Below, piece after piece: positions 36,899 through 38,252 of a stretch of 38,679 bases of DNA. Below the pieces are notes generated by a model. That model made no database searches and had not been told where the DNA came from. It saw only the letters and a list, made by a program, of their open reading frames with translations. How positions within the stretch are numbered: position 1 is the first letter of the stretch; every line of letters starts with the position of its first letter. The translations under genes and the position numbers were made by a program. Source of the stretch: an uncultured Opitutia bacterium (lineage in GTDB: Bacteria > Verrucomicrobiota > Verrucomicrobiia > Opitutales > Opitutaceae); NCBI GenBank assembly GCA_903840415.1, contig CAIMFY010000004.1, positions 1 to 38,679 of the forward strand, read 5' to 3'.

Positions 36899-37855
36899 TC
36901 AGGCGGGCGGCGTGCCAACGGTATTGCCGGCGACGAGACTGGCTTCGACTAAAATTTTTCGGCGGGGTGCCTGCGGATCAAGCATCCGGCTGGTGAGACG
37001 GACGAGTGCGGACGAACCGATGTCTTCGTGCGCGACTCTCATGGAGGTCAGCGGCAGCGCACCCGGCGGCGGCTCCACACCGTCAAACCCCGTCACCGAG
37101 CAGTCGCGCGGCACGCTGATGCCGAGTTCGCGCAAGTCCTGCACGAGATGATAAGCTTGGTGGTCCGCAGCACAGACCCACGCTGTGACCCCGGAGGTGC
37201 GAGTGAGCCGGGCGACTTCATGAGCGATCGCGGGCGCCTCGAGCGGCACCGCGTTCTTGTGGACGTTGATCGCCCATTCGGGATGAAACGCCAGGCATTC
37301 GCCAAAGATGCCCTCGGCAAAGGCGCCGAAACGGCGAAGGGTCCAGTGGACGCCGACAGGATAGCGCCACGTGGCAAAACCGATGCGCCGGTGGCCGCGC
37401 TCCGCCAGCAATCGCACCAAGCCAACGATCCCGGCGGTGTCGTCAACATCGATGGAGTCGAGCCCGATCTCGGGATAATCCTCCAGTAACTCGACGGTGG
37501 AAATCTTGCGCGCGATCATTTCGACGGCCTTGTGCGGAAACGGATAAATCAGCAGCGCGCCCCGCCAGTCCGCCGTGCGAATTTGGCGGAAGACTGCCTG
37601 CCGCGGCGCATCCGGCTCGAAGGACATGGGATCTTGGTAACACACATCCACCGCGATCCGATCCATCTCGGCCCGGTCGCGAATGCCTTTCAAGATGTAG
37701 GGGAAAATGGAGAGCGCCATGTTCCCTCTTTGAGCACGCTTGAGAAAATCGACACTGCGACCTCGCAGGACAAAAATATCACGCTCCTCAAGCTCTTGCG
37801 GCATCACGCTCAAGACCCCACCTCGAAATCCATCATGCTTCGTTTTTTTTGCCAC
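36899..37855 (-). CDS. LacI/GalR-type effector-domain protein lacking a DNA-binding domain
   Basis: A 318-residue protein with the periplasmic-binding-protein-like sensor domain of LacI regulators: IDVDDTAGIVGLVRLLAERGHRRIGFATW near residue 135, TAWVCAADHQAYHLVQDLRELGISVPRD and SVTGFDGVEPP, ending SMRVAHEDIGSSALVRL. The first strand of this domain begins by about residue 26, so the usual 55-60-residue N-terminal HTH is absent, and no AraC-type HTH follows at the C-terminus. GTG 37855 has a GGAG 7 nt upstream. Only 89 bp lie before the tRNA, so a lost HTH could not fit without overlapping it. It lies next to the GH1 gene, 30 bp away; sugar sensing is plausible. Confidence 0.8.
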   Translation of the reverse strand: MAKKTKHDGFRGGVLSVMPQELEERDIFVLRGRSVDFLKRAQRGNMALSIFPYILKGIRDRAEMDRIAVDVCYQDPMSFEPDAPRQAVFRQIRTADWRGALLIYPFPHKAVEMIARKISTVELLEDYPEIGLDSIDVDDTAGIVGLVRLLAERGHRRIGFATWRYPVGVHWTLRRFGAFAEGIFGECLAFHPEWAINVHKNAVPLEAPAIAHEVARLTRTSGVTAWVCAADHQAYHLVQDLRELGISVPRDCSVTGFDGVEPPPGALPLTSMRVAHEDIGSSALVRLTSRMLDPQAPRRKILVEASLVAGNTVGTPPA

Positions 37856-37944: not shown

Positions 37945-38252
37945 GGGCCTATAGCTCAACGGTTAGAGCAGAGGACTCATTGACAATCAGTGCCAACGGA
38001 TGGGAAACCGCCGTTGGGATACGGGGAAATTCGGCGAAACCTTCGCGACAACGCATGGCAACGCCGGGCTGAGCCAGCGGTGCACTGCTGGAAAGTGTAG
38101 AGACTAGCGGAGGAGTTCAGTCTCCTTAATCACCGCATCAACCCCCGTCACCCTACCGCGAAAGCGCGGGTGAAGACATAGTCCAAGGAGCGTCGAAAGG
38201 CGCGCAAACTTGAATCCTTTGGTTCTGGGTTCGAATCCCAGTGGGCCCACCA
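37945..38252 (+). tRNA. tRNA-Ile(CAU) interrupted by a group I intron
   Basis: Exon 1 is 37945-37980 and exon 2 is 38213-38252. Acceptor GGGCCTA pairs with TGGGCCC, the D-arm is GCTC/GAGC, and the anticodon stem is GAGGA/TCCTT with loop CTCATAA (anticodon CAT). The T-arm is CTGGG-TTCGAAT-CCCAG, and CCA is encoded. The body resembles bacterial tRNA-Ile2 rather than tRNA-Met or fMet; its C34 would need TilS lysidine modification to read AUA. The intron splits the gene just after U36. A weak hairpin (38257-38262 with 38269-38274) follows the gene. Confidence 0.95.
37981..38212 (+). ncRNA. Group I intron (IC3-like, Azoarcus tRNA-Ile type) with an extra P7-P3 hairpin
   Basis: P1: exon CAU plus intron UGA pairs with UCAGUG (37978-37983 / 37987-37992), with the U37980-G37990 wobble at the splice site. 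P2: 37993-37999 with 38011-38017, capped by GGGAAACC. P3: ACGGGG 38021-38026 with CCCCGT 38143-38148. P4: 38032-38036 with 38062-38066. P6: 38074-38078 with 38087-38091. P7: GACTA 38102-38106 with TAGTC 38179-38183 (the guanosine site). P8: CCGCG/CGCGG at about 38156-38169. P9: 38190-38194 with 38199-38203, GAAA loop. The terminal G is 38212. The core matches my memory of the 205-nt Azoarcus intron; about 30 extra nt form a GCGGAGGAG...CTCCT...CCGC hairpin. No ORF is present. Confidence 0.95.

Follow-up and report, generated by a model that had tools for sequence, protein, structure and literature searches.

The tRNA-Ile(CAU) gene and its intron

The tRNA-Ile(CAU) gene at positions 37945 to 38252 of the window (the whole 38,679-nucleotide [nt] stretch of DNA that was analyzed) is split by an intron lying directly 3′ of U36 and ends in an encoded CCA. 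We put the probability at roughly 0.95 that this is, as judged from its sequence, a functional group I intron within a gene that is probably the sole source of tRNA-Ile(CAU) in the cell. The kind of intron is known and the host lineage is unusual; Opitutia is a class of Verrucomicrobiota, the phylum that the first-pass annotation had named. If this reading is correct, the AUA-reading tRNA of an environmental bacterium would be under ribozyme control. Introns at this site (U36/A37) in the host family are referred to below as type A, and those of a second lineage, between U33 and C34 of the same tRNA, as type B. The exons and the intron are as follows.

37945..37980, plus strand: 5′ exon of tRNA-Ile(CAU), nt 1 to 36, with the anticodon CAU at its end (sequence, spliced cloverleaf, and identity with an intact gene)
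37981..38212, plus strand: group I intron, 232 nt, with no room for a homing endonuclease (Intron_gpI, covariation, and tRNA-Ile intron model)
38213..38252, plus strand: 3′ exon of tRNA-Ile(CAU), nt 37 to 73 plus the encoded CCA (sequence and spliced cloverleaf)

When the exons were joined by a scripted splice, they gave a full cloverleaf with the anticodon CAU. All 76 of its positions agree with the intact gene of family member G025, and it differs at 1 to 4 positions from each of five further intact-looking genes. The first-pass annotation had described a complete, readable tRNA-Ile(CAU) broken after U36 by 232 nt; its coordinates and length proved exact, and the tRNA identity and the position of the break were borne out by the sequence and by comparison of position with the aligned introns.

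The tRNA finder used, ARAGORN, missed or misnamed the gene. With introns disallowed, it did not call the interrupted gene at 37945 to 38252, and with introns allowed, it labeled the same interval tRNA-Gln(ttg), so that automatic annotation may carry the wrong tRNA there. In a simple scan, nothing resembling a terminator was seen 3′ of the gene, and a single promoter-like site lay about 170 bases upstream (37749 to 37777; 0.3 expected by chance), so that the scan yields no transcription signal for the gene. Elsewhere in the window, ARAGORN called a tRNA-Leu(gag) on the minus strand at 1664 to 1743, which is probably spurious because the Rfam tRNA model had no match on the contig and another tRNA-Leu(gag) is present in the genome.

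Intron identity and secondary structure

A covariance model (R1) built from 25 hand-chosen tRNA-Ile introns of other phyla, all of them bearing an extra hairpin between P7 and P3, and including 24 exon positions, matched the window intron at 186.2 bits (E = 8.8e-61). This was the sole R1 match in the window and also in the 4.9-Mb genome, where 150 of 1,165 first-look candidates were scored. The general Rfam model Intron_gpI (RF00028), with which the first-pass annotation had proposed an Infernal search, did match positions 37969 to 38205 (E = 3.6e-6) at 31.8 bits, short of the curated cutoff of 50 bits, which is a scoring line rather than a property of group I introns; at the gathering threshold, Rfam reported nothing in the window. 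The lack of any covariance-model hit, which that annotation had named as grounds for giving up its reading, was therefore not what was found, and the group I reading is supported by the score from a model of outside members and by covariation. The intron has the conserved P3 to P8 core with P7 and its guanosine site by which group I introns are recognized, and its U36/A37 position, guide GUG, and score with the outside-member model place it in the tRNA-Ile2 intron lineage.

A structure of 69 pairs, drawn up manually for the sequence of the window, was tallied over 11 family genes, including that of the window. Its helices are as follows, all on the plus strand.

37978..37992: P1, exon CAU (37978-37980) with guide GUG (37990-37992), U37980-G37990 being the wobble at the splice site; invariant in 39/39 rows
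37993..38017: P2, 37993-37999/38011-38017, inner pairs 38002-38003/38008-38009, loop GAAA 38004-38007; 5/9 pairs with two-sided changes
38021..38148: P3, 38021-38026/38143-38148, enclosing P4, P5, and P6; 100% of cells paired, 1/6 pairs with a two-sided change (A-U to U-A)
38031..38096: P4-P5-P6 domain with the P6a hairpin, 38074-38080/38085-38091; two-sided changes in 6/7 pairs of P6a and none in P4 or P5
38102..38183: P7, 38102-38106/38179-38183; paired in 11/11 rows, invariant
38107..38136: P7.1/P7.2, the extra hairpin lying between P7 and P3; no variation of the outer stem within the family, outside introns with comparable stretches
38149..38172: P8, 38149-38153/38168-38172; 98.2% of cells paired, one-sided changes only
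38185..38212: P9.0, 38185-38187/38209-38211, P9 hairpin, 38190-38203, with a GAAA loop, and terminal G38212; two-sided changes in 4/5 pairs of P9 and 1/3 pairs of P9.0

The helices P1 to P9 read in the first-pass annotation were paired in 738 of 754 cells (97.9%), a value reached in none of 500 shuffles, and two-sided changes were found in 22 of the 69 pairs, again reached in 0/500 shuffles. When partners were slid by 1 to 3 columns, pairing fell to 31 to 44%. In the 11 rows, no variation occurs in P5, in P7, or in the extra hairpin's outer stem, and these helices therefore draw no covariation support from them; at the place of the extra hairpin, outside introns have a comparable stretch with other letters. 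In an alignment of 39 introns (11 from the family and 28 outside introns, the rows hand-picked), CAU, GUG, GAGACUA, AUAGUCC, and the terminal G were invariant, in agreement with the earlier proposals that the anticodon serves as the 5′ half of P1 with a U36-G wobble and that the intron ends in G. The guanosine site proposed for P7 is present by position: G38102-C38183 is the expected guanosine-binding pair, a role that we take from general group I biochemistry. The overall plan fits that of the tRNA introns that we take to be of subgroup IC3, but the P7-P3 hairpin is like P7.1/P7.2, which we take to be typical of subgroup IA.

None of 100 dinucleotide shuffles was as stable as the pre-tRNA (z = −3.9). 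Free folding recovered most helices except the pseudoknotted P7, and in its centroid the anticodon stem spans the intron. Removal of the intron by proteins (a splicing endonuclease) instead of by a ribozyme would leave a complete group I anatomy with covariation to be accounted for; nothing was found in favor of such removal, bacteria are not known to use the archaeal tRNA endonuclease, and we give this account next to no weight beside self-splicing.

Gene copies and proposed splicing

The genome yielded 43 tRNA matches, the interrupted gene not among them, of which 41 were read. Three had the anticodon CAU, comprising, by sequence, one elongator-like tRNA-Met and two initiators and no tRNA-Ile. 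A 21-base pattern across the empty intron site had no match in the window's genome (G000), and a search of that genome with the whole gene found a single place, the window locus. Because there is no Ile among the CAU tRNAs read and no match to the empty site, the genome probably has no tRNA-Ile(CAU) gene besides the interrupted one. The assembly is a draft (98.08% complete, 124 contigs), and neither tRNA-Ile(GAU) nor tRNA-Ala(UGC) was among the 41 tRNAs read in it; since some tRNA genes, probably those of rRNA operons, are absent, an intact tRNA-Ile(CAU) copy could be missing too.

The missing tRNAs of the draft, along with the 2 of 11 type A genomes that also match the intact-gene pattern, speak for a dead intron or a pseudogene, the work being done by an unassembled intact copy. 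We regard this as very improbable, as the catalytic core and helices are kept, the mature tRNA is unchanged, and the intact-gene pattern is absent from 35 of 42 type A or type B genomes versus 61 of 210 other family genomes (Fisher test, P = 6e-11, uncorrected for kinship). The underlying hand counts of genomes with the pattern were 2/11 for type A, 5/31 for type B, and 149/210 for the others, with a pattern that is strict and misses variants; of the matches, G021 at least is a fragment only. About equally improbable is that the gene encodes elongator tRNA-Met(CAU). ARAGORN does name the spliced sequence Met, from the anticodon, but the genome has a separate elongator-like tRNA-Met and two initiators, and the acceptor stem carries C4-G69 and C5-G68, which we take to be TilS determinants, versus A4 and G5 in the tRNA-Met.

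As a functional intron in tRNA-Ile(CAU), the element would be transcribed with its exons as a single pre-tRNA. It would fold with the guide GUG on the anticodon CAU, bind a guanosine in P7, and be cut after U36; the freed U36 would then attack after the terminal G and be joined to A37, two transesterifications in all. The anticodon loop CUCAUAA would be complete only after splicing, and TilS, the gene for which is present in the genome (142.8 bits), would then modify C34 and thereby enable the tRNA to read AUA, TilS presumably acting after splicing. Whereas the anatomy and conservation of the intron are observed, we infer the chemistry and order of these steps by analogy with other group I introns. 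No intact copy was seen in the draft assembly, and the AUA-reading tRNA would be expected to depend on self-splicing, as the first-pass annotation had suggested. Demand for it is low in the six open reading frames of the window, as AUA makes up 1 of their 113 Ile codons. The intron would belong to a lineage found at the same site in several phyla and would be one of two lineages to have entered this tRNA in the family.

Related introns at the same site in other bacteria

A scan for tRNA genes in which CAU is followed by C, G, or T returned at least 119 stretches, and 68 of the 80 matches listed show the guide, P7, and P7′ motifs. By their titles, these 68 records are mostly from Gammaproteobacteria, with others from Burkholderiales, Bacteroidota, and further groups; one is of the window's family, and one is a probable contaminant. 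Among the 12 listed matches without the motifs, 4 are cut by the locus end (L108, L109, L163, and L167), and 5 look unrelated by eye (L092, L097, L127, L128, and L140). The other three (L136, L148, and L152) fail the motif test, while R1 still matches L136 at 111 bits and L152 at 131 bits; these two matches span about 273 nt, and the parsed lengths of 667 and 685 nt are therefore probably wrong.

The earlier statement that group I introns in tRNA-Ile(CAU) are known from other bacteria was thus upheld by these records and also by the literature. In the tRNAscan-SE 2.0 paper, 36 bacterial genomes are described as missing fMet or Ile2 genes owing to group I introns, and such introns are named in tRNA-Ile2 of Acidovorax and Burkholderia (PMC8450103). 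Both the site and the kind of intron are therefore already known. The Azoarcus tRNA-Ile intron appears in two further papers, one citing its crystal structures (PMC3984707) and one giving its guide as 3 nt long (PMC6274277). In literature on Verrucomicrobia or Opitutaceae, no report of such an intron was found in coverage that largely excludes subscription papers; a Thiomargarita paper that came up there mentions Verrucomicrobia in connection with ribosomal protein L30.

The tRNA-Ile2 introns of Proteobacteria share with the window intron the tRNA and, in the scan records, the site after U36, the CAU/GUG guide pairing, and a similar core, and many share the extra hairpin between P7 and P3. They differ in host phylum, and the tree sets the family's introns apart as a separate group. 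In the outer stem of this hairpin, the family has GCGG...CCGC versus CCUG...CAGG in most outside introns displayed; one outside intron, from an Azonexus bin (L113), has the family's version.

A tree was built from 99 introns: 60 outside introns, 11 of type A, 27 of type B, and one tRNA-Arg intron. The 60 outside loci were those parsed with introns of 150 to 330 nt, with L123, L126, and L143 dropped and L095, L100, and L154 added by hand. All 11 type A introns fell on one side of a branch (88/87), and the 27 type B introns were separate (100/99). The window intron grouped with introns having the P7-P3 hairpin, the joining branch being weak (75/71). Because deep branches are weak, long branches meet, and the bootstrap is unsettled, we rely on no more of the tree than that type B is separate and type A clusters.

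The likeness to Azoarcus drawn in the first-pass annotation held for the 3-nt guide and the wobble at the splice site. Introns L100, L101, and L154, which we take to be of the Azoarcus type and which stand in for the Azoarcus sequence itself, lie in another group of the tree, and L101 lacks the space that the window intron's extra hairpin would need. R1 scored L100 at 102 bits and L101 at 101 bits versus 184 to 203 bits for the family introns, as a model trained on hairpin-bearing introns only, which it therefore favors. With the tree and the R1 scores both siding with the hairpin-bearing type, the Azoarcus type is disfavored as the closest outside kin, and these comparisons weakly suggest that, beyond its own family, the intron is closer to extra-hairpin introns. 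L100 lies on a contig titled Akkermansia muciniphila and is very like a Limnohabitans intron (similarity ratio, 0.966); it is probably contamination of the assembly and was excluded from the verrucomicrobial count.

Type A introns in the family and phylum

Type A introns of 225 to 234 nt were found in 11 of 252 family genomes, the interrupted gene of one (G017) being 306 nt long. The interrupted pattern matched 12 of the 252 genomes, one match (G230) being due to chance and not an intron; since the pattern is strict, 11 is a lower bound. Intron_gpI detected the intron in 9 of the 11 type A genomes (G103 and G188 were missed), none above the cutoff. It also gave a candidate in G032, which was rejected with no tRNA pattern in the locus. 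A blastn search with the whole gene against plasmids gave no match, and in one against phages the 36-nt 5′ exon alone was matched, by six records of Acinetobacter phages; a phage or plasmid carrier was rejected on these results.

A search of 387 genomes of the phylum gave six matches, consisting of three type A introns, G326, G590, and G364 (weak). In G326, an apparent tRNA-Arg(CCU) gene contains a group I intron at about positions 1500 to 1745 of locus L254 (71.4 bits, above the cutoff). Two group I introns above the Rfam cutoff (L253 and L256) lie on one contig of G590 (C89) in surroundings that are protein-coding-like and, by eye, perhaps phage-like.

Type B introns and probable intron turnover

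A second group I intron lineage interrupts the same tRNA between U33 and C34 in 31 of 252 family genomes. It was first recognized because the tRNA match of relatives stopped at nucleotide 33, and its loci include L210 to L239, L025, L026, L029, L030, and L035. The search matched 36 of the 252 genomes, from which the type A cross-matches G017 and G026 and the weak matches G071, G188, and G200 were dropped. Among the 31 retained, 27 were parsed at both splice sites, G249, G262, and G263 are incomplete or interrupted by contig ends or N, and G151 was counted by match alone. Two further type B introns were found among 384 genomes searched, in another family of the class.

The type B intron starts after GGACU and ends in G before CAUAAUCC. 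In an alignment of 25 of the 27 parsed introns, the guide GGUC on exon GACU was present in 25/25 rows, and five P7 pairs were kept in 25/25, with two-sided swaps at two positions. Intron_gpI detected one of five type B loci (E = 0.1), and R1 scored L210, L212, L230, and L257 at 63 to 66 bits. Type B and the window intron have in common the tRNA, the family, a group I core, and the locus within one genus; type B differs in its site, its guide, the absence of the extra hairpin, and its separate clade. No intron site at U33 is named in the titles and opening lines of abstracts that were surveyed.

Each of the genus groups g1, g8, and g57 contains both types, in different species. Upstream of the tRNA, five reading frames are shared in collinear order by G000 (type A) and its congener G001 (type B). 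In G000, this block is separated from the tRNA by two genes that have no match in the G001 stretch, one for a GH1 protein and one for a protein with a periplasmic-binding-protein-like domain. The flanks of the four g8 type A genes are alike, and those of most other locus pairs compared are not. No genome among the 252 had both types, which does not support mutual exclusion, as only about 1.4 co-occurrences would be expected by chance (11 × 31/252).

On balance, we favor the view that two separate, small group I lineages lacking an endonuclease have invaded one tRNA repeatedly, at two sites that flank the anticodon and lie three nucleotides apart (U33/C34 and U36/A37), replacing each other or alternating at an orthologous locus within a genus; the U33/C34 site may be undescribed. 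This turnover is of more interest than the window intron itself. Because intact, type A, and type B versions occur in close relatives, the family allows tests of how introns that carry no endonuclease are gained, lost, and exchanged. In G004, which has a type B gene elsewhere in its genome, an intact tRNA-Ile(CAU) without encoded CCA (L027; C1, 1267239 to 1267311) is followed by a second copy of the 3′ end, and this locus looks like an integration site.
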